A stretch of 54,734 bases of DNA from Myxococcaceae bacterium (GTDB lineage: Bacteria > Myxococcota > Myxococcia > Myxococcales > Myxococcaceae): the NCBI GenBank assembly GCA_016926755.1, contig JAFGNZ010000183.1, positions 1 to 54,734 of the forward strand, given 5' to 3'. Both the position numbers and the translations under genes were made by a program. Under the pieces are notes generated by a model, which ran no database searches, was not told the DNA's origin, and was given only the letters and a program-made list of their open reading frames with translations. Positions within the stretch are counted from its first letter, which is position 1, and each line of letters begins with the position of its first letter. Positions 26,587-37,640 of the stretch are shown piece after piece.

Positions 26587-28344
26587 GTGACGACCAAAAC
26601 GCGCAAGGCCAGCAAGGCGGATCCACTCTCGGAGCTGCCCCGCTGGGCCCAGAAGCTGGCCCAGAAGTACTACACGAAGACGGTGTCCACCTTCCTGCTC
26701 TACGGGGCGGTGAGGGACCTGCAGCCCATCACGCTGGAGGACGGCAGCCGGGGCTACAGCATCCTCAAGACGTTCCTGGCCGAGGAGCTGTTCGGCGGCA
26801 GGGATCACGTCATCTTCTATGATCGCTCCTCCGGCATCCGCGCCGCCTCGCCGGAGACGCAGAAGGATCTGCAGCGGGCGATGGCGGGGTATGACGCGCT
26901 CTACGGCACGGACTACGCCAAGTCGCTGCCGAGAGATCCGGGCCGGGCGCTGCAGATCCTGGAGAACTTCCTCCGGCTGCGCCTGGTCGAGGGCAGGTCG
27001 ATGGCGCTGGTCATCGACTTCGCGGAGACGCTGGTGCCCGGCGGGGAGATGAGCCACCTGTCCGCGGAGGACCGCTTCGTGGTGGCCACGCTGGACAAGT
27101 GGGCGCACGATCCGCAGTTCCTGTCCAACGACGTCTCCGTGGTGCTGCTGGCGGAGAACCTGGCGGACATCTCCCCGCGGATCGCCCGCAACCCGTACGT
27201 GGCCCCCATCGAGCTGCCGCTGCCCGGCGAGGACGAGCGGCTGGACTACGTGCGCTACAAGCTGGAGGGCAAGCGGCTGCAGTCCGTGTCGGACGTGCCG
27301 GTGGCGGCCCTGGCGAAGATGACGGCGGGCCTGTCGCGCATCAACCTGGACCGGGTGCTCACCGAGGCCATCGAGCGGGACGTGCGCATCACGCCGGAGC
27401 TCCTCAAGGAGAAGAAGAAGGAGATCATCCAGGCGGAGTGCCACGGCCTGCTGGAGTTCATCGAGCCGGCCAACAACCTGGACTCGGTGGCGGGCCACGC
27501 CAAGGCCAAGGAGATGCTGCGCAACGCGGCCAGCGCGCTGAAGAAGGGCCGCAACGAGGTGATGCCCATGGGCTACCTCATCAGCGGCCCGGTGGGCACC
27601 GGCAAGACGTTCATGGTGACCAGCTTCGCCGGGGAGATTGGCATCCCCGCGGTGAAGTTCCTCAACTTCCGCAGCCAGTGGCAGGGCGTCACCGAGGCGA
27701 ACCTGGAGCGCATCTTCACGCTGCTCAAGGCGCTGTGGCCGGTGGCGGTGATGGTGGACGAGGCGGACACCTTCCTGGGCAACCGGGACGCCAGCGGGGA
27801 CTCGGGGACGAGCAGCCGCGTGTTCGGCTCCATCGCCTCGTTCATGGGCAACACGCAGTACCGCGGGAAGATCGTCTGGTTCCTGATGACGGCGCGGCCG
27901 GATCTGCTCCCCATCGACCTGAAGCGGCAGGGGCGCGCGGAGGAGCACCTGGCGCTCTTCTACCCGCAGACGGACGCGGAGCGGGACGAGCTCTTCCGGG
28001 TGATGCAGAAGAAGACGGGCGTGTCGGTGGACGTGTCCTCCTTCGCGGAGCTGCTGCCGGAGGGCGTGCGCCAGTTCAGCGGCGCGGACATCGAGGCGGT
28101 GATGGTGCGCGCGAAGTTCCGCGCGCTGGCGCAGGGGCGGGAGCAGGTGGCGGTGGACGATCTGAAGGCGGTGCTGGCGGACTTCATCCCGCCCAGCTAC
28201 CCGCTGGAGATTGAACTGCAGAACCTGGTGGCGGTGCAGGAGTGCACCAGCCGCGAGCTGCTGCCCGAGGAGTTCCGTGCCATGGATCGGGATCAGATCA
28301 CCCGGCGCGTGCGCGAGCTGAAGCTGCTGCTCGAGGAGCAGTGA
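26587..28344 (+). CDS. Ycf46-like AAA+ ATPase
   Basis: 585 residues from a GTG start. The N-terminal half (about 1-280) resembles an AAA domain without Walker A: FLLYGAVRDL, then SMALVIDFAETLVPGG and a sensor-like VSVVLLAENLADISPRI. The C-terminal half is an active FtsH-class AAA module with GPVGTGKTF (Walker A, about residue 338), VAVMVDEADTFLG (Walker B) and an arginine-finger region FLMTARPDLLPIDLKRQGR. A degenerate first module plus active second module is the Ycf46 layout known from cyanobacteria and many bacteria. Function unknown. It converges on the three-gene Clp-like operon across a short pseudogene. Confidence 0.8.
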   Translation: MTTKTRKASKADPLSELPRWAQKLAQKYYTKTVSTFLLYGAVRDLQPITLEDGSRGYSILKTFLAEELFGGRDHVIFYDRSSGIRAASPETQKDLQRAMAGYDALYGTDYAKSLPRDPGRALQILENFLRLRLVEGRSMALVIDFAETLVPGGEMSHLSAEDRFVVATLDKWAHDPQFLSNDVSVVLLAENLADISPRIARNPYVAPIELPLPGEDERLDYVRYKLEGKRLQSVSDVPVAALAKMTAGLSRINLDRVLTEAIERDVRITPELLKEKKKEIIQAECHGLLEFIEPANNLDSVAGHAKAKEMLRNAASALKKGRNEVMPMGYLISGPVGTGKTFMVTSFAGEIGIPAVKFLNFRSQWQGVTEANLERIFTLLKALWPVAVMVDEADTFLGNRDASGDSGTSSRVFGSIASFMGNTQYRGKIVWFLMTARPDLLPIDLKRQGRAEEHLALFYPQTDAERDELFRVMQKKTGVSVDVSSFAELLPEGVRQFSGADIEAVMVRAKFRALAQGREQVAVDDLKAVLADFIPPSYPLEIELQNLVAVQECTSRELLPEEFRAMDRDQITRRVRELKLLLEEQ

Positions 28345-28493: not shown

Positions 28494-30818
28494 TCAGGGG
28501 CTGGGAGCGGGCCGAGGCCCGGCGTCGAGCACCGTCGCCAGCGCCCGGAGCTCCGGCCCCATCATCCGCTCCGCCGCGGTGCCTGCGACGACCACCGGCA
28601 GCATCTGCCCCTCCAGCGCGGCCTCGGCCGAGAGCCGCACCGCGATGGGCGCCATCACCTGGGCCTCGATGAGGCGCTTGAGCGGCCGGGCCCCCAGCTT
28701 CGGATCATAGCCGTGGCGAGCCAGCCAGGTCCGCGCGGCCGGGTCCACCACCAGCCGCAGCCTGCGCCGCAGCAGCCCCGCCCGTGAGGCCGCCTTCTCC
28801 AGCTCGAGGTCGACGATGCGCAGCACGTCCGCCTCCGAGAGCCGGCGGAACGGGATGACATGGTCGATGCGGTTGAACAGCTCCGGCCGGAACGCCTGCC
28901 GGACGGCCCGCATGAAGTCTCCCGCGCCGCGCTCGGCGCCGTAGCCCACCGGCTCGGACTGCTCCACGCCGAGGTTGCTCGTCATGCAGATGACCGTCAT
29001 CCGGAAGTCGACCAGCCTCCCGAGGCTGTCGGTGAGCCGCCCCTCGCCCAGGATGCCGAGCAGCAGATCGAACACCTCCGGGTGTGCCTTCTCGATCTCG
29101 TCGAAGAGGACGAGCGACATGGGCTGCTGCCGCACCCGCTCGGCGAGGCTGTTGATGCCCGGCCCCACCTCCATCAGCCGCTGCGCCGAGCCCGGGAGCA
29201 TGTACTCGGACATGTCGAGCCGGATCATCCGGTCCTCGTCTCCGAAGAGCGTGCGCGCGAGCTGCTTGGACAGCTCCGTCTTCCCCACGCCCGTGGGCCC
29301 GACGAAGAGCAGCGTGCCCACCGGCTTGTCCGGATCATTGAGGCCCGCCTTGAGCCGCGCGAGCACCCCCGCGGCCTGCTCGCAGGCGCGCTCCTGCCCG
29401 ATGACTCCGCGAGCGAGCTGCGCGGCGAGCGTGCTCTGCTCGGCGGGGAGCTCGTCGCTGATGAGCTGCAGCGGCAGCCCCGTATAGCGCGCGTAGGCCT
29501 CCGAGGCGTCGCGCGGGTAGAGGGTCCGGGGCTTGCCGCGCTCCCCCTGCTGATCCAGCCAGTCCAGGAAGCGGAAGGCCTTGCCGGGGAACAGGCTGTC
29601 ACGCTGGAACATCTCCAGGTGCCCGACGAGCTGCCGCAGCCCCATGGGGTGGACGGTGACGCTGCTGCGCCGGGTCTCCTGGTAGCGCCGCATCAGCTCC
29701 GGGACCTGCGAGGCCGGCGGCTCCTCGAAGCGGACGACCGTGAAGGGGCGCAGCGCCTCCGGGAAGCGGCGCTGGCAGCGCTCGAACTCGCCCTCGGTGC
29801 ACTCGGCGATGAGGGAGATCTCCTCGCTCATCGCCGCGGGCAGGAGCAGGTCGCCGATCGAGGAGCCATCCGGCTGGGGCGCCAGGAGCGAGGTGAGCCG
29901 GTCGACGTAGAGGTAGTGGTTCTCGTGCGAGAGCGCGTCGATGATCTTCAGGCAGCGCTCCTGCCACATGCCCAGGTACACCATGCCGGCCACGATGCGC
30001 TCGGCGCTGGTGCGCCAGATCTTCGGGAAGTGCGCCTCCTTGTCCTCGCGCCGCTTCGCCACGATCCACCGCGCGAGCTTCAGCACCCAGCTCGTCTTGC
30101 CGATCCCCGGCCCCCCCACGAGCAGGAGTGAGCGCGGCGGCTGGCGCTTCAGGGCGCCGAGCCAGCCGTCCATCGAGTCGCTGTCATAGACCAGGGGTGG
30201 GAGTCGCCCCGCCGCCGCGAGCCGGGTCAGCTCCTCGCCGATCTGCCCGAGCACCTGCGGCGCGGGCTCCTCCTCGGAGCCCCTCCGGGAGGACTGCTGG
30301 AGGTCGCCGGGATCCCAGCTCTGCACGTACTCCTCGCCCTCGTAGCGGAAGTCGTAGAGCCCCTTGGGCTGCTCACCGAGCAGGGCGGTGGCCAGCGCCT
30401 GCTGCAGCACTTCGCGCGCGATGGTCAGCTCCTCGAGCACGAAGGACCAGCCGAAGCGCGGCACCAGCACCCGGTACGCGCCGCTCTCCAGCTTGCCGTA
30501 GACATAGGTCAGCTTCAGCGGGACCAGCGCCTTGCCGATCACCGGCCGCTTCTTATGCAGCGTCTGCGGGTGGACCTCCACCGTGAGCGTCCTGGCCTGC
30601 AGGGACTCCTCCCACAGGAAGCGCTCGAGCGCGGAGGTGTCGTCGACCAGCATGAGCCGCACCTGGGACTCGAGCAGGCTGTAGACCTCGGCCGCGCTGG
30701 CACCGTAGGCGGACGGCGCGGGCGCATCGAAGAAGCGCTCCCACACGGGCAGCAGCCGTCCCGTCAGCCGGCCGTCATGGTGCGTGGTGAAGTAGACGCG
30801 AAGACTCTTGTCGCTCAT
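28494..30818 (-). CDS. Clp-like double AAA+ ATPase, short form (third gene of triad)
   Basis: 774 residues. Residues about 1-150 form a non-Clp N-terminal domain shared with the two upstream genes (VEVHPQTLHKKRPV, then KALVPLKLTYVYG and YRVLVPRFGWSF). AAA-1 has Walker A GGPGIGKTS (about residue 235) but its Walker B reads HYLYVDRLTSL, lacking the catalytic Glu. AAA-2 is a complete Clp/Hsp100 module: GPTGVGKTELSKQLARTLFG (about 508), LVLFDEIEKAHP, TSNLG, and the C-terminal small domain with DPKLGARPLKRLIEAQVMAP. There is no ClpB coiled-coil middle domain. Unlike its two partners it stops right after AAA-2. It begins four bases downstream of the preceding gene. Confidence 0.85.
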   Translation of the reverse strand: MSDKSLRVYFTTHHDGRLTGRLLPVWERFFDAPAPSAYGASAAEVYSLLESQVRLMLVDDTSALERFLWEESLQARTLTVEVHPQTLHKKRPVIGKALVPLKLTYVYGKLESGAYRVLVPRFGWSFVLEELTIAREVLQQALATALLGEQPKGLYDFRYEGEEYVQSWDPGDLQQSSRRGSEEEPAPQVLGQIGEELTRLAAAGRLPPLVYDSDSMDGWLGALKRQPPRSLLLVGGPGIGKTSWVLKLARWIVAKRREDKEAHFPKIWRTSAERIVAGMVYLGMWQERCLKIIDALSHENHYLYVDRLTSLLAPQPDGSSIGDLLLPAAMSEEISLIAECTEGEFERCQRRFPEALRPFTVVRFEEPPASQVPELMRRYQETRRSSVTVHPMGLRQLVGHLEMFQRDSLFPGKAFRFLDWLDQQGERGKPRTLYPRDASEAYARYTGLPLQLISDELPAEQSTLAAQLARGVIGQERACEQAAGVLARLKAGLNDPDKPVGTLLFVGPTGVGKTELSKQLARTLFGDEDRMIRLDMSEYMLPGSAQRLMEVGPGINSLAERVRQQPMSLVLFDEIEKAHPEVFDLLLGILGEGRLTDSLGRLVDFRMTVICMTSNLGVEQSEPVGYGAERGAGDFMRAVRQAFRPELFNRIDHVIPFRRLSEADVLRIVDLELEKAASRAGLLRRRLRLVVDPAARTWLARHGYDPKLGARPLKRLIEAQVMAPIAVRLSAEAALEGQMLPVVVAGTAAERMMGPELRALATVLDAGPRPAPSP

Positions 30819-30822
30819 GGCG

Positions 30823-33800
30823 TCACGCGCTCCCGTCCGTCGGGTTCTGGGTCATCCGCAGCCGCCAGAGGGCGGGCAGGGCCTCCGCGGGAGCCCGTAC
30901 CCGGTGCGTGCCGCTGTAGCTGAGCAGGTAGTCGTCGAGCTCCATCGGCGCCACCGCGCCGGGGCGGGCAGGCGGCTCGACGCGGTAGGCGCGCACCACG
31001 GGGACCGCCGCCTCGGGGTTCTCCGGCAGGGGCGTGGCGCCCTCCTGGCGCGCCTTGTGGAAGGCCTGGAGCTTCGCGTCATGCAGCGTGAGCAGCTCCA
31101 GCGGCTCCGGCGCGGACTCACCGTGCACGCGCACCTTGACGATCTCCGGGAGGCGCCCCGTGGACTGCCAGACGTGCAGCCCGGCCTCTCCCTCGAAGAA
31201 GGGCCGCACGCCCGGGCCCACCTGCTTGAGCACGATGTGCACCGGCTCCATGTTCCACTGTAGGAGCGCCGGGAGCTCCCGCGGGCCGCCCGAGGTCAGC
31301 GCGCCTCCCGGGAAGCGGACGGCGAAGCGCTCGATCTCGCCGCGCGTGCCGCGGGCGTACGCGTCGCAGAGCCAGCGGGCGAGCAGCGAGCCGGAGGCGC
31401 CCCCCTCTCGCCACTGCCCCAGCGGGAACAGCTCCAGGGTGATGACGTGCTGGTCGGAGCGGGCGAGCTCCCGGAGGATCCGCTTCAGGAAGGCGACCTC
31501 CGCGACCGCGTCGAGCATCTGCTCGCGGGAGACGACCTTCACCGGCTCGAAGGCCCGCCGGTCGAAGATCCGCACGCGCTCGCCATCGGAGCCTCTGTAG
31601 GTGTCGGTGCGGCGCTCGAGGACTCCGAAGCGCTCGACCTCGATCATCTCCCGCGCCTCCTCCTCGGGGGCTCGCGCGAGGGCCTCCAGCCGCGCCGCGA
31701 ACTCCTCCAGGTACAGCCGCATCGCGTCGAGCGTGTAGAGCGACTCGGCGTGGTCGCGCTCCCCCGCCTGCAGCCGCGCGAGGTGGAAGCGGACCTGCTC
31801 GGACAGCGCGCCCAGCGAGTCGCTGTGCCGCATGCGCTGCACCTCCTCGCGCGCCTCGAGCGCCTTCTCGCGCAGCTTCGCGATGGGGAGCGCCAGGAGC
31901 GGCTCGAGCGCGAACCCCTCGGGTACCGGCTCGCGGGGCACGAGCGCGTCGGCCTGCACCTCGAAGCGGCCGTCGCGGGTGTAGAGCTGGAACAGCCGCA
32001 TGAGCGCCTGGGGCCCGCGGATGATGGCCTCGGAGAGGACGTGCCCGACCTTCTCCTCCAGGTAGCGCTTGAGCGGCCGCGCGCCCAGGGTGGCATCGAA
32101 GGCCTCCGCGACGATGCGCCGCTTCACCTCGTCATCGGTGGACACGAAGATGTGGCGCGAGCTCAACCCGCGCCGCGCCAGCAGCCGCGCGAGCTCCTTC
32201 TCCACCACCTTCTCGCCCGACTCCCGCGAGAGCGGCGAGAAGTGGACGATCTGGTCGATGCGGTTGAAGAGCTCGGGCGGGAAGAACTCGCGCACGGCCC
32301 GGTCCGAGTCGAGGGCCACGCTCCGGGCGTCCACCTCGCCGATGCCCACCGGCTGCTTCTGCCGGGCCCCGAGGTTGCTCGTCATCACGATGACGGTGTG
32401 GGTGAAGTCCGCCGTCTCGCCCGAGGCGTCGGTGAGCCGGCCCTCGTCGAACGTCTGCAGGAGCAGGTTGAGCAGGGCGGGGTGGGCCTTCTCGATCTCG
32501 TCGAGCAGCACGAGCGTGAAGGGCTGCTCGCGGATGGTCCGCGTCAGGCGGCCCTCCGGCTGCCACGCGTCGCCGGTGAGCCGCGCGACGGCGTCCGGCG
32601 TCTGGAACTCGGCCATGTCGAGCCGCACCATGCGCGAGGCATCGCCGTACAGGTAGCTGGCCAGCGCGCGCGCCAGCTCGGTCTTCCCGGTCCCCGTCGG
32701 CCCGGTGAACAGGTAGACGCCATAGGGCCGGCGAGGATCGGTGAGGCCGGCGTGGATGCGCGCGATGAGATCGGCCGCCACCGCCACCGCCTCCGGCTGG
32801 CCCATCACCTTGCGTGACAGGGCCGCGAGGACCTCGGAGGGCTCCAGCCGCTTGTTGGGGTGGAGCAGGAAGTCCGGCAGCCCCGTCACGCGCGAGAGGT
32901 GATCGAAGAGCACGCCGGTCTCCAGCTCCTGCTGGTCGCTGTAGTCGGCGGCCAGCTTCCGCAGCAGGTCGAGCGCCTTGCCCGGGAGCGCGGCCCCGGC
33001 GAAGAGCGACTGGGCCTGCTCCAGGAGGGTAGGGAAGAGCGTGGGCTCCCAGGTGACGTCATGGCGGCCCTCCAGCTCCCGGGACTCGTGGAGCAGCATC
33101 CGCAGCGTCTCGTCCGTGCTGGTGGGCCGGACGTGGAGCGGGGTGAAGAGCGCGGCGAAGGACGGGGCATCCGTCTCGAGCCGCTGGAGCTGCTCCGGCG
33201 TCACCGCGCCCACGAGCATGATCTCCCCGCGCGCGAGCGGCCCCTGGAAGAAGAGGGCGAGGTTGGCGTCGCTGTCGCGCGAGCGGCCGATGCGGCCGAA
33301 GGCGTGCAGATCCTCGACGAAGAGGATGCGCCGGCCTCCGCGCGACTCCTCGAGGAGCTTCAGGCAGCGCTGCTCCCAGTCGCCGACATAGCTCATGCCG
33401 GCGATGATCCGCTTGCCCGCGACCGACCAGACCTCGGTCACCTTGTCCAGGTTGCGGTGGCTCCGGAAGTCCTCGGCCTCGAGCTGCTCGGCCACGAAGC
33501 GCCGGAGCAGGGTCCGCTTGCCGCAGCCCGGCGGCCCGACGAGCAGCACCGGCGTGCGCCGCTCCCCGCCCAGCAGGAACTGGAGCTGCTCGCGGTAGGG
33601 GCTGCGCGGCATCCCGGTGTCGAGCGAGCCCTCCGCCGCCTGGAGGGTGAGGTTCGTCCCCAGGCTGTTCAGCACCTGTTTGCCCCCGCGCGACTTCTTC
33701 TTCTTGCCGGGCCGGTCCTCCAGCTCGAGGTCATCCCAGGGCCCCTTCTTCTTGCCGAGCTCGTCGATCAGCGACTTGGGGCGGGCCACGAAGGAGATGG

Positions 33801-34287
33801 CCTGGAGGTTGTCCTTGCGGCTGGAGCGCAGCTCCTCGTGCTCGTACGCGAACAGGCCGGCCCAGGCGCGGGTGAAGAAGGCCTTCGCCTGCTCCTCGAG
33901 GCCAATCTCGGGATCGACCGGGAACCACTCGTCCTGTCGCGCGGGGTGGTAGGCGATCGTCATCGGCTCCTCGCGCGTGCGCCACCGGGGCTCGAGGATG
34001 AGCGGGAAGAGGCCCGCCAGCTTCCGTGTCTCGGCCCCGCTCTGGACCCGCCGGAAGTCCAGCTCGAGCCGCACCCGCTCCAGCCGGATGCCACGTGGGA
34101 GCTGGAAGTACGCCAGCTCGCGGACGGGGAGCTCGCCGATGATGGTGCGGAGATCGTCCACCAGGTTGCGCTGCAGCTTGACCGAGCTCTTGCCCGAGCG
34201 GCTGCGGGTATACGGGCCGAGCGCGAGCGTGGTCCAGTGCAGGCCCCTGGGGCCCCGGAGTTGGTAGATGGCGATCGTGAGGTTCAT
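30823..34287 (-). CDS. Clp-like double AAA+ ATPase with PCRF-like C-terminus (second gene of triad)
   Basis: 1154 residues from the ATG at 34287, which overlaps the upstream stop (ATGA). The N-terminal domain is about 210 residues. AAA-1 has Walker A GPPGCGKRTLL (about 250) and a Walker B-like ILFVEDLHAFG (Glu-Asp instead of Asp-Glu). AAA-2 is canonical: GPTGTGKTELARALASYLYG (about 530), LVLLDEIEKAHP. After a helical stretch (about 820-940) comes a region resembling the PCRF domain of RF1/RF2: HVITLELFPLGQ, SLLARWLCDAYARGTRG, then VHIVLKQVGPGVRPFFEGEA followed by GLHVWQS (about 1035). The release-factor GGQ domain is absent. Together this suggests an unfoldase that may recognise a ribosomal or nascent-chain target; function is inferred. 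Confidence 0.85.
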   Translation of the reverse strand: MNLTIAIYQLRGPRGLHWTTLALGPYTRSRSGKSSVKLQRNLVDDLRTIIGELPVRELAYFQLPRGIRLERVRLELDFRRVQSGAETRKLAGLFPLILEPRWRTREEPMTIAYHPARQDEWFPVDPEIGLEEQAKAFFTRAWAGLFAYEHEELRSSRKDNLQAISFVARPKSLIDELGKKKGPWDDLELEDRPGKKKKSRGGKQVLNSLGTNLTLQAAEGSLDTGMPRSPYREQLQFLLGGERRTPVLLVGPPGCGKRTLLRRFVAEQLEAEDFRSHRNLDKVTEVWSVAGKRIIAGMSYVGDWEQRCLKLLEESRGGRRILFVEDLHAFGRIGRSRDSDANLALFFQGPLARGEIMLVGAVTPEQLQRLETDAPSFAALFTPLHVRPTSTDETLRMLLHESRELEGRHDVTWEPTLFPTLLEQAQSLFAGAALPGKALDLLRKLAADYSDQQELETGVLFDHLSRVTGLPDFLLHPNKRLEPSEVLAALSRKVMGQPEAVAVAADLIARIHAGLTDPRRPYGVYLFTGPTGTGKTELARALASYLYGDASRMVRLDMAEFQTPDAVARLTGDAWQPEGRLTRTIREQPFTLVLLDEIEKAHPALLNLLLQTFDEGRLTDASGETADFTHTVIVMTSNLGARQKQPVGIGEVDARSVALDSDRAVREFFPPELFNRIDQIVHFSPLSRESGEKVVEKELARLLARRGLSSRHIFVSTDDEVKRRIVAEAFDATLGARPLKRYLEEKVGHVLSEAIIRGPQALMRLFQLYTRDGRFEVQADALVPREPVPEGFALEPLLALPIAKLREKALEAREEVQRMRHSDSLGALSEQVRFHLARLQAGERDHAESLYTLDAMRLYLEEFAARLEALARAPEEEAREMIEVERFGVLERRTDTYRGSDGERVRIFDRRAFEPVKVVSREQMLDAVAEVAFLKRILRELARSDQHVITLELFPLGQWREGGASGSLLARWLCDAYARGTRGEIERFAVRFPGGALTSGGPRELPALLQWNMEPVHIVLKQVGPGVRPFFEGEAGLHVWQSTGRLPEIVKVRVHGESAPEPLELLTLHDAKLQAFHKARQEGATPLPENPEAAVPVVRAYRVEPPARPGAVAPMELDDYLLSYSGTHRVRAPAEALPALWRLRMTQNPTDGSA

Positions 34288-37200
34288 CGCTTCGCCTCCC
34301 GGAGCGTGTCCAGCTCGAAGGAGAAGCTGGCCTCGCGGTCGAGGCCGCCGGTGCGCTCGGCGTGGGCGAGGTGCTCGAGCAGGACGAACTCGAGGTCCGG
34401 GAAGTAGTCCTGCTCCTCCAGCTCGAGCTCGCGCGCGTCCTCGCACAGCGAGAGCTTCCCCTCGGGGAGGTGGCTGCGCACGGCCGGCATCAAGCGGAGC
34501 TGCTTGATCATGGGCGGTGGCGGCGGGCTGATGACCGGCAGGGAGAGCTCCTTGTCGGACAGGTGGCTGCGCATCGCGACCGGCCTGACGGTGAGCAGGG
34601 TGGGCGGCTCCTTCTCGTCCGCGCCGGCATTCTGGAAGCGATGCAGCCCGGCCTCGAGCGCCAGGAAGACGCCGGCGTTGGGGCCGTGGATCGACAGCAG
34701 CACCTCGTGGAAGGTGCGCTCGGGATTGGCGAGGGCCCGCTTCAGCTCCTCCATGCCGAGCAGCTCACCCCACTTGCGCTTGCGATCGCTGCTCTTGCTG
34801 ATCAGCGCCGGGCGGCCCTCGACGACCCAGCGGCGCCGCGGCGCGTCCTCGAGCAGGGGGAGGAGCCAGCGTTCGAAGCCACGCATCCCGGGAGGTTCCT
34901 GGAGGAGCAGCGTGATGTCATCCCGCCGCGGCTGGAGCGCGAGCAGCAACGCGGGCAGGTGTCGGCACAGGGTTTGGAGCTGTTCGCCGGCGTCCTCGAC
35001 GAAGGGCTCCACGTCCTGTTGCTCGAACAGGGCCATCAGCGCCAGCTCCTCGGCCGCCACCAGCGCGCCGCGCAGCTGCTGCGCCTGCGCCCAGAGCCCA
35101 TCGAGCCGGTGGTGCTCACCCCTCAGGCTCGCTACCGAGGCAGCGCCGGGCCCGCGCTCATCGCGATCGCCCTGGGAGAGCTGGGCCACCAGGAAGCCGA
35201 GCTGCTCTTCGAGCTGCACCACCGCGTCGAGCCGGAAGAGGGCGTCGATCTTCCGGCGCTGGGACTGTAGCTCCCGCACCCGCTCGAGCTGGTTGCGCGT
35301 CGCCTTCGGGCTGCTCTTGTGCAGCTGCACCGCGATCGCCCTGTCTCGCAGGGTGACTTCGAGGCGTGCGCCCTGTCCTTCGCGCCCCGCCGCGGAGAGG
35401 GCGCGCGCCAGGGGGACGACGAGCTGCTGGTCCAGGTGCCTGCGCATGGCGCGCGCGCCATAGGCCTCCTGGTAGCCGGAGGTGGCCAGGGCGGTGGTGG
35501 CCTCGGGCGGGAGCTCCAGCGTGATGCCGCGCTGGAGCAACCCCCGCCGCTGCCGCAGCTTCTCCACCCCCAGCCGGGCGACCTCCGCCACCTGCTCGGA
35601 GGTGAGCGCGTGGAAGGGGATGATCTGGTCGATGCGGTTGACGAACTCGGGCCGGAAGTGCCGGTGCACCTCGCGCAGGTAGTGGGTGGCCTCATCCGCC
35701 GCCGTCGCGCCGATGCCCAGCGGGGTGCGGCGGTGCGCCGCCCCGAGGTTGCTGGTCATGATGATGATGGCGTTGTGGAACCAGGCGGTGCGTCCGCGGG
35801 CGTCGGTGAGGCGCCCCTCGCCGCAGACCTGCAGGAGGAGATCGAAGACGGCGGGGTGGGCCTTCTCGAGCTCGTCGAGCAGCAGCACGCAGAAGGGCTG
35901 TTGGCGGATGCGCCGGGTGAGCTGGCCTTCGCCCTGCTCGTTGCCGCGGATGAGCCGGTCGGCGGCCCAGGCGTCCATGAACTCGCTCATGTCGAAGCGG
36001 AACATCCGGTCGGCCGAGCCGAAGAGGAAGGTGGCGAGCAGCCTCGCGAGCTCGGTCTTGCCCACGCCGGTGGGGCCGACGAAGAGGAACGTCGCCAGCG
36101 GCTTGCCCTGGGGCTGGAGCCCCGCCTTGACCATGCACAGCGTCTCCACCACGCGGCGCACGGCGAGCTCCTGGCCGATGAGCTGGCGGCGGAAGTTTGC
36201 CTCGACGTCCCCGGCGAGCAGCGAGCGATCCACGCGCAGCAGGAACTCGGGGACGCCGGTCTTCATGCTGAAGAGCGAGTAGACCCGCTCGCGGGTGAGC
36301 ACGGCGGCCTTGCCATCGGCGGTGCGCTCCTGCTGCACGCCCGCGCGCATCTCCTCGTAGAGGCGGAAGGCCTTGCCGGGCAGCGCGCGGCTGGGGAGGT
36401 AGCGCTCGGCCAGCTCCACCAGCGGCTCCACCGCATCGTCGGCCAGCGCCGGCCGCTGGGGCTCCCTCTGCCGCTGCCACGCCACGCGCCCCCGCAGGGC
36501 CTCGCACGTGGTCCGCGCGCCCAGCGGCTCCAGGCGCACCCTCGCGAGCGCGGCGAAGAGGCCCGGGTGCCGGCTCTCGAGCAGGTCGAGCGACTCGGGC
36601 AGCAGCTCGCCGAGGAAGCGGACCTTGCCCTCCTCGAGGAAGGGCTTCATGGCGCCGGGCAGATCGATGGACTCGGTGGAGTGCTGCGCGAGCAGCTCGC
36701 CCAGGTTCTCGAAGTAGAGGATGGCGCCGAGATCGTGCGCCGCGCGCATCACGCGCAGGACGCGCTCCTGCCACTGGCCGAAGCCGGACATGCCCGCGAT
36801 CAGCCGCGAGCCGCTCGTGGCATACACCCGCCGCTCCCGCCCGGCCCGCCGCTCCGCGCGCAGCCAGGCGTAGAGCAGCTCCGTCTTGCCCGAGAGCTCC
36901 GGGCCGACGAGCAGCACGCCCTGCCGCTTCGCGCCGCCGAGCAGGCTCGACAGGAGCGACAGCTCGGTATCGCGGCCGATGAGCGGGGGCCCGCGTTTGG
37001 CCTCCTCGCGCTCGTGGAGCAGGGTGGAGACGGAGAGGAGGACCTCATGGGCCTGGTCTCGTTGGAGCTTCTCCTGGAGCTTCTTCCGGGTCTGGCGTGC
37101 CTTCTCCCCGGCAAGGTCCTGGCGCCGGAGCTGGAGGTGCACGGTCTCCAGCGCCACCGACTTCGGGGGCAGCAGCCGCAGGTACTCGTGGGCGTTCGGC

Positions 37201-37640
37201 TCCCGCGCGGCCAGCAGCCGCTCCACGTCCGCGCGGACGAGCTCGAGCACGTCCTGGTTGCGGGCCACGTAGACGGTGTGATCGAGCGCGGGGACGAAGG
37301 CCCAGATCTCCTGCGGCAGGGGCACGATGACCGTGGCGAGCTCGAGCGTCTTCGGCTTGAAGAGGCGCTTGGGCAGGTCGGCGCGAGGCGCCAGCACCTC
37401 GATCATCTCGAGCCGCACCTTGGGGGGGAGGGCGAAGCGGGCGAGGATGTCGGGCTCCACGCGGGAGAGGTGCTCCTCCAGGAAGAGCCGTTGCTCGGCG
37501 AGGCAGGCCTCCTGGGTGGGCGCGTGGCTCGTCATCGCGGGCGCGGCGACGGGGAACGCCAGGTGGTCACCGTTCCAGAGCTGCTGGCAGAGGAGCGGGG
37601 TGGCGAAGGCGAGGGTCCCGGAGACGTCGGAGGCAGGCAT
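34284..37640 (-). CDS. Clp-like double AAA+ ATPase with PCRF-like C-terminus (first gene of triad)
   Basis: 1118 residues. The ATG at 37640 is preferred over the one at 37535 because the extra residues look like part of the N-terminal domain. AAA-1 carries Walker A GPELSGKTELL (about 246) and Walker B-like AILYFENLGELL, again lacking the Asp-Glu pair. AAA-2 is canonical: GPTGVGKTELARLLATFLFG (about 525), VLLLDELEKAHP, TSNLG. From about residue 800 a helical segment leads to a second PCRF-like region: DDITLLLQEPPGMRGFERWL, then FHEVLLSIHGPNAGVFLALE with AGLHRFQ (about 997), matching the EAGVHR strand-turn of release factors. A Pro-rich stretch follows. First of three coupled genes; 66 bases separate it from the lytic transglycosylase upstream. 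Confidence 0.85.
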   Translation of the reverse strand: MPASDVSGTLAFATPLLCQQLWNGDHLAFPVAAPAMTSHAPTQEACLAEQRLFLEEHLSRVEPDILARFALPPKVRLEMIEVLAPRADLPKRLFKPKTLELATVIVPLPQEIWAFVPALDHTVYVARNQDVLELVRADVERLLAAREPNAHEYLRLLPPKSVALETVHLQLRRQDLAGEKARQTRKKLQEKLQRDQAHEVLLSVSTLLHEREEAKRGPPLIGRDTELSLLSSLLGGAKRQGVLLVGPELSGKTELLYAWLRAERRAGRERRVYATSGSRLIAGMSGFGQWQERVLRVMRAAHDLGAILYFENLGELLAQHSTESIDLPGAMKPFLEEGKVRFLGELLPESLDLLESRHPGLFAALARVRLEPLGARTTCEALRGRVAWQRQREPQRPALADDAVEPLVELAERYLPSRALPGKAFRLYEEMRAGVQQERTADGKAAVLTRERVYSLFSMKTGVPEFLLRVDRSLLAGDVEANFRRQLIGQELAVRRVVETLCMVKAGLQPQGKPLATFLFVGPTGVGKTELARLLATFLFGSADRMFRFDMSEFMDAWAADRLIRGNEQGEGQLTRRIRQQPFCVLLLDELEKAHPAVFDLLLQVCGEGRLTDARGRTAWFHNAIIIMTSNLGAAHRRTPLGIGATAADEATHYLREVHRHFRPEFVNRIDQIIPFHALTSEQVAEVARLGVEKLRQRRGLLQRGITLELPPEATTALATSGYQEAYGARAMRRHLDQQLVVPLARALSAAGREGQGARLEVTLRDRAIAVQLHKSSPKATRNQLERVRELQSQRRKIDALFRLDAVVQLEEQLGFLVAQLSQGDRDERGPGAASVASLRGEHHRLDGLWAQAQQLRGALVAAEELALMALFEQQDVEPFVEDAGEQLQTLCRHLPALLLALQPRRDDITLLLQEPPGMRGFERWLLPLLEDAPRRRWVVEGRPALISKSSDRKRKWGELLGMEELKRALANPERTFHEVLLSIHGPNAGVFLALEAGLHRFQNAGADEKEPPTLLTVRPVAMRSHLSDKELSLPVISPPPPPMIKQLRLMPAVRSHLPEGKLSLCEDARELELEEQDYFPDLEFVLLEHLAHAERTGGLDREASFSFELDTLREAKR

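Follow-up and report, generated by a model that had tools for sequence, protein, structure and literature searches.

A three-gene Hsp100 operon of Myxococcaceae with predicted RF2-derived tails and a possible link to translation stress

The window analysed here, a stretch of 54,734 nucleotides from a Myxococcaceae bacterium (assembly GCA_016926755.1, contig JAFGNZ010000183.1, positions 1 to 54,734), contains an operon of three Clp-like (Hsp100) ATPase genes, two of which encode C-terminal tails resembling PCRF, the second domain of bacterial release factors RF1 and RF2. Comparative analyses indicated that the gene 1 tail is almost certainly homologous to RF2 (PrfB), and that the gene 2 tail is likely to be so. 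Judged from sequence, the operon proteins are neither release factors nor standard ClpA or ClpB. The three genes, with D1 and D2 denoting the first and second AAA+ modules, are:

34284..37640, minus strand: gene 1 (P0003), 1118 amino acids (aa); N-domain, D1, D2 AAA+, D2-small and a predicted RF2-derived C-terminal module.
30823..34287, minus strand: gene 2 (P0002), 1154 aa, with its ATG start at 34287; N-domain, D1, D2 AAA+ and a putative, eroded RF2-like C-terminal module.
28494..30818, minus strand: gene 3 (P0001), 774 aa; N-domain, D1, D2 AAA+ and no RF2-like tail.

An earlier note, made from the DNA letters alone, had cited PCRF motifs in gene 1, and these were found in the sequence in the order DITLLLQEPPG, ERWLLPLLEDAPRRRW and LLSIHGPNAGVFLALEAGLHRFQ. 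The segments of gene 1 that were compared with RF2 are:

34941..35318, minus strand: helical stretch, aa ~775-900 (approximate limits), comparable to RF2 domain 1 by profile-profile alignment through B-type gene 1 (described below).
34581..34928, minus strand: PCRF-like (RF2 domain 2) core, aa ~905-1020, without the alpha-5 GG tip and SPF.
34629..34715, minus strand: GPNAGVFLALEAGLHR motif, aa 976-1004, matching PF03462 positions 149-177.
34356..34517, minus strand: probable remnant of RF2 domain 4, aa ~1042-1095 (approximate limits), aligned to the B-type KDLRTG region.

Full-length gene 1 matched PF03462 (PCRF) with 12 bits and the tail alone with 15.7 bits (E 0.014), short of the Pfam gathering score of 24 bits; the single-protein Pfam search at the default cut-off, which misses this domain, was rejected as a route of detection. 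PCRF was matched by all six gene-1 orthologues searched against Pfam (best E 0.001), and any other family by one orthologue at most. A profile of 14 gene-1 orthologues, run against all PDB sequences with E up to 10, returned two matches, both to RF1. The tail was also modelled with AlphaFold2 (AF2), template-free and from a two-sequence alignment, and the model was poor (predicted local distance difference test score, pLDDT, 44.5). In a Foldseek search of 350,542 PDB chains, ranks 1-12 were occupied by RF2, RF1 or mtRF1 chains, with a best E of 5e-4 and low TM-scores of about 0.2; rank 12 was a ribosome entry, the matched chain of which was identified as RF1 by PDB sequence search. The AlphaFold check proposed in the earlier note was favourable for gene 1, release factors heading the list despite the low confidence of the model. 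The poorer model of the gene 2 tail (pLDDT 35.3, likewise from a two-sequence alignment) showed no release-factor enrichment in Foldseek, which argues against the gene 1 ranking being something that any bad model from this family would produce.

When the whole genome of the same bacterium was searched for PCRF, its normal RF1 and RF2 genes came up together with a third strong match (65 bits, E 3.6e-17), located inside a 975-codon frame that itself encodes a Clp-type ATPase:

L044:4534-7458, contig C231 of the same genome: Clp-RF2 fusion, a fourth Clp-type ATPase, with a whole RF2-like region.

Unlike gene 1 and gene 2, this fusion exceeded the PCRF gathering score. Profile-profile comparison of its tail with RF2 gave an alignment of 288 columns (99.7%), and the C231-type profile matched RF2 structures with E 2.5e-21 over positions 67-362 of 375, from domain 1 to the C-terminus. 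The fusion was present in about 86 of the 96 family genomes, and one sister-family genome had it as well; its sequence identity between Hyalangium and the other genera was about 85%. In the rest of the phylum, the matches listed were only lower-scoring ones that resembled RF2 itself. It is the clearest member of the Clp-RF2 theme and may be the best experimental target. None of the papers searched describes it, and a review of release-factor evolution (PMC6514570) mentions neither Clp nor PCRF. In the five loci viewed in close relatives, C231-type genes adjoined RNase J or lay within about 7 kb of it. YajQ and the S12 methylthiotransferase RimO shared the block with the fusion and RNase J where examined (L128:2753-7441; L044:2778-4418), and the C231-type gene is close to these three in several genera.

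The link from RF2 to the window was completed by a diverged form of the operon, termed B type, the window operon being A type. The B-type gene-1 tail matched RF2 with E 2.7e-7, and B-type gene 1 itself aligned to RF2 domain 1; the corresponding stretch of window gene 1 was helical in the low-confidence AF2 model. The window and B-type gene-1 tails aligned over 243 columns at 92%, with a score of 56.6 against at most 28.7 for shuffled controls (here and below, 60 column-shuffled profiles, all of which were beaten), and the top hidden Markov model (HMM) scores between tail families were higher than any from 7,400 shuffled sequences. In these relatives RF2 domain 1 can still be recognised by its FWDD helices, as can the PCRF core and a C-terminal motif of domain 4 (KDLRTG...), but domain 3 (GGQ) is either missing or degenerate. 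The relationship to RF2 is broader than PCRF alone, taking in domains 1, 2 and 4. On this profile evidence, the chain from RF2 to gene 1 through the C231 fusion and the B-type operon is divergent yet unmistakable. The earlier argument that the resemblance exceeds chance is upheld by the shuffled controls and by PCRF being the only recurrent Pfam family; Pfam matches, the profile chain and the Foldseek ranking together mark the PCRF-likeness of gene 1 as real homology.

The corresponding feature of gene 2 is:

31108..31470, minus strand: PCRF-like region, aa ~940-1060 (approximate limits), holding GPGVRPFFEGEAGLHVW at 31165-31251.

Its motifs occurred in the order VITLELFPLG, RWLCDAYARG and VLKQVGPGVRPFFEGEAGLHVWQ. 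A six-frame whole-genome search with the HMM of the gene-2 tail gave a match in genome G017 (E 1.7e-4), which fell in the PCRF part of its Clp-RF2 fusion. The hhalign comparison of gene-2 tails with the fusion family gave 78-85%, above every shuffle (score 49.1, shuffled controls at most 20.6). The similarity to PCRF did not extend beyond a core of about 50 residues, Pfam gave no PCRF match for gene 2, and nothing was found when gene-2 profiles were compared with PDB sequences. The PCRF-likeness earlier proposed for gene 2 is well supported, though only within that core. Taken together, transitive profiles and Foldseek pointed to RF1/RF2 ancestry (domains 1-2) strongly for gene 1 and more weakly for gene 2.

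The GGQ motif and domain 3 were absent from the sequences and alignments of genes 1 and 2, as the earlier note had maintained, and the C231 fusion was likewise without GGQ. Alignments indicated loss of the codon-reading SPF/PxT loop and the alpha-5 GG tip in both C231 and gene 1, the RF2 sequences AGAGGTD and HRLVRISPFD corresponding to CASEAMEAQ and HRRIEDEK in C231. The E.GxHR core motif was strongly retained in gene 1 and in the fusion. Having lost GGQ, SPF and the alpha-5 GG tip, the operon tails are not release factors; since the residues that read stop codons are lost, they are not codon decoders either, and the label "decoder-site-like" given earlier has to be corrected.

The motor itself was Clp-like with marked deviations. 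The genes lie head to tail, with a 4-nt ATGA overlap between genes 1 and 2 and a 4-nt gap between genes 2 and 3, and the coordinates and domain matches agree with the original description of three double AAA+ genes so spaced. Pfam placed AAA_2 and ClpB_D2-small in all three proteins, and a ClpA-like alignment spanned both AAA modules in each, with scores far under the ClpA/ClpB equivalog cut-offs. The two AAA+ modules with D2-small expected of a Clp/Hsp100 protein were thus present; two catalytic Walker B motifs were not, since the D1 glutamate was missing from every subfamily (FEN, VED, VDR, LGH, VDD, LDS or IRD). The D2 Walker A, Walker B (LLDE/LFDE) and arginine finger were kept in all subfamilies, none of which had the GYVG pore loop in D2. 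In gene 1 this module is:

35622..36104, minus strand: D2 AAA_2, aa 513-673, with Walker A/B and arginine finger intact and no GYVG pore loop.

An aromatic D1 pore loop (GFG, YVG, YLG) was retained in the operon proteins. Where a ClpP-binding loop would lie ([LIVMP]-G-[FL] sought), the window proteins read LGI, VGI and VGY, and relatives mostly xGF. The sequence suggests that D2 is the powered ring and D1 the gripping ring, with an uncertain ClpP partnership. Pfam Clp_N was not matched by any protein of the window triad. The N-termini of genes 1-3 (aa 1-215) were blank in Pfam except for a weak, below-cut-off RecJ_C match in gene 1, and by eye resemble tandem HicB-like alpha/beta units.

The operon is a self-contained unit. 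Genes 1 and 2 of A type occurred in the same 14 of the 96 family genomes, across four genera, and the neighbourhood survey suggested in the earlier note found the triad contiguous and in constant order in all 13 genomes examined besides the window. None of their flanks was common with those of the window, and flanks were patchily common among close relatives only; flanking genes, mostly unshared between genera, were rejected as a functional clue. A 585-aa AAA+ protein (window 26587-28344, plus strand) converges on the triad and is absent from other triad loci. B-type gene 1 was found in about 41 genomes (putatively Myxococcus, Corallococcus and others), and G049 and G054 show that it reaches beyond the family within the phylum; the B-type loci examined formed a compact three-gene operon in the same order where the contig allowed. 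The A and B types never occurred in the same genome. A single scan of genome contigs gave one locus, in Hyalangium versicolor; this species is genome G006, which falls in the same genus as the window, so that the window genus is Hyalangium. In a tree of the AAA modules, the gene 2 proteins of the two types grouped together (95/94), and the operon genes were separate from canonical Clps and the C231 fusion (96/93). Orthology of gene 1 between the types was unsupported by this tree alone and was not accepted on that basis; by profile-profile alignment the gene-1 N-domains of the two types aligned at 85% and the gene-3 N-domains at 56%, and the gene-1 tails aligned too. In some B-type gene-1 proteins the PCRF region is interrupted by an insert (PF00542; E 0.003 at best, short of the cut-off):

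L052:6031-6246, with relatives in L162, L163 and L169: insert resembling the ribosomal L7/L12 C-terminal domain.

A connection with translation stress was sought in Myxococcus, where the B-type triad of genome G132 has a type VI secretion system (T6SS) cluster on one side and a ClpC-like gene with a zinc finger on the other. In M. xanthus the T6SS is MXAN_4800-4813 with ClpV as MXAN_4813 (PMC5801462, PMC4239648), and MXAN_4818/4819 are ATP-binding cassette transporters (PMC6617876). Because the T6SS tags, MXAN_4818/4819 and the Clp gene MXAN_4832 fit the gene order of G132, the M. xanthus triad is probably MXAN_4823-4825, an assignment made by synteny. These genes, annotated merely as Clp ATP-binding subunits, were reported to be raised by chloramphenicol with log2 values of 1.47/2.17/1.92 and 3.57/2.67/2.61 in two conditions (PMC6617876), the highest being about 12-fold (log2 3.57). 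No other paper among those searched mentions them. Encoded between this T6SS and the Myxococcus triad is a small protein (L187, G132 5933979-5934407) that by eye resembles the ribosome hibernation factor HPF/RaiA.

From the constant co-occurrence and order of the three genes, we infer that three different Hsp100 subunits would assemble into one mixed, hetero-oligomeric ring, which is reasonably probable. ATP would be hydrolysed in the second AAA ring, and the first would grip the polypeptide through its aromatic pore loop. Subunit 1, and subunit 2 in a more eroded form, would bear an RF2-derived arm built from domains 1, 2 and 4, which may serve as a docking arm that guides the unfoldase to ribosomes or to termination or rescue complexes during translation stress. 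Once docked, the machine would pull on nascent chains that have stalled or on factors that are stuck, and might hand them to ClpP. Ring composition, ribosome docking, substrate and ClpP partnership are the inferred parts of this scheme. As the best overall explanation, an unfoldase reaching stressed ribosomes or termination complexes by a decoding-dead, release-dead RF2 arm earns about as much credence as doubt, and targeting by the arm, taken by itself, is an evenly balanced proposition. The earlier idea that such an unfoldase may act on ribosomes has gained a single independent support, the response of the syntenic M. xanthus operon to chloramphenicol. Weaker hints of translation come from the L12-like insert and from the RNase J/YajQ/RimO neighbourhood of the C231-type gene.

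Several observations weigh against this scheme. No PCRF signal was detectable by HMM comparison in the B-type homologues of gene 2, and for this reason, together with the length of the match (~50 residues), the homology of gene 2 is graded likely and not certain. The gene 1 proteins of the A and B types were not grouped in the AAA tree, and the operon induced by chloramphenicol is a diverged homologue of that in the window; its induction could reflect general proteotoxic stress. A large C-terminal domain would occupy the D2 exit face, the side on which ClpP docks. Docking in the A site is not assured, because the decoding contacts that hold RF2 there are lost.

Convergence or chance is a very improbable source of the PCRF resemblance: gene 1 fell under the Pfam cut-off (12 bits), gene 2 had no Pfam match and both AF2 models were of low confidence (pLDDT 44.5 and 35.3), but the transitive chain to RF2 has significant steps, every shuffled control was beaten, and Foldseek ranks 1-12 for gene 1 were release factors only. 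Granted the homology, the module could have been exapted for a role off the ribosome, as a tail that is structural or binds adaptors and serves ring assembly or the recognition of substrates or partners. The loss of all codon-reading and catalytic motifs, the great divergence of the module in the operon proteins and its erosion nearly to invisibility in gene 2 would suit such a role. It appears unlikely on balance, since it accounts poorly for the chloramphenicol induction of the syntenic operon, the strong retention of the E.GxHR core in gene 1 and the fusion and, in relatives, the L12-like insert and the proximity to RNase J.

A different use of the module would be to bind RF2 or the partners of release factors (RF3, PrmC, rescue factors), the unfoldase remodelling or degrading termination factors off the ribosome. 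The clear retention of RF2 domain 1 in relatives agrees with this, as does the [VLI]GF-like loop that several subfamilies keep where ClpP-binding loops lie; in the window proteins, however, GIG or GYG stands at this loop, and the part of a release factor that PrmC recognises, the GGQ domain, is missing here. We regard this use as rather improbable. The reading of a ribosome-targeted, hetero-oligomeric Hsp100, in which a GGQ-less, stop-codon-blind RF2 derivative docks on stalled ribosomes, extracts nascent chains or factors and is induced by ribosome-blocking antibiotics, is put forward only tentatively as a previously undescribed system.

Bacterial ribosome rescue is carried out by tmRNA (transfer-messenger RNA), ArfA/B, RqcH and similar factors. 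If the proposed reading is true, the joining of an AAA+ unfoldase to a release-factor derivative would tie unfolding power directly to the translation machinery, a loose parallel to Cdc48, which is linked to eukaryotic ribosome quality control. The idea is testable at once, because probable counterparts (MXAN_4823-4825 and a C231-type orthologue) exist in Myxococcus, which is readily handled in the laboratory.

Compared with known systems, the window proteins share with ClpA, ClpB and ClpC two AAA+ modules, D2 Walker A/B, the arginine finger and D2-small; they differ in lacking the D1 catalytic glutamate and the D2 GYVG loop, in their own N-terminal domain and RF2-like tail, and in coming as three distinct subunits. 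With RF2 they have in common domain 1, PCRF core and domain-4 motifs, arranged as in RF2; B-type gene 1 and the C231-type fusion show this most clearly. The window module, by contrast, is without GGQ, SPF and the alpha-5 GG tip and sits behind a double AAA+ motor. The unusual release-factor homologue PrfH (RF-H) retains its GGQ domain. The two-gene systems of PrfH are the subject of Baranov et al. (2006; PMC1586002). PrfH resembles the present case in being such a homologue in a small conserved operon and differs in that it is not known to have a Clp partner. Balon is a hibernation factor of the aeRF1/Pelota family that binds the ribosomal A site (PMC10901736). It too has a release-factor fold without the stop-codon and GGQ motifs, but it belongs to the aeRF1 family rather than to bacterial RF2, has no ATPase and is unrelated by homology; as a precedent, it shows that a release-factor fold stripped of its decoding and GGQ motifs can turn into an A-site stress factor.

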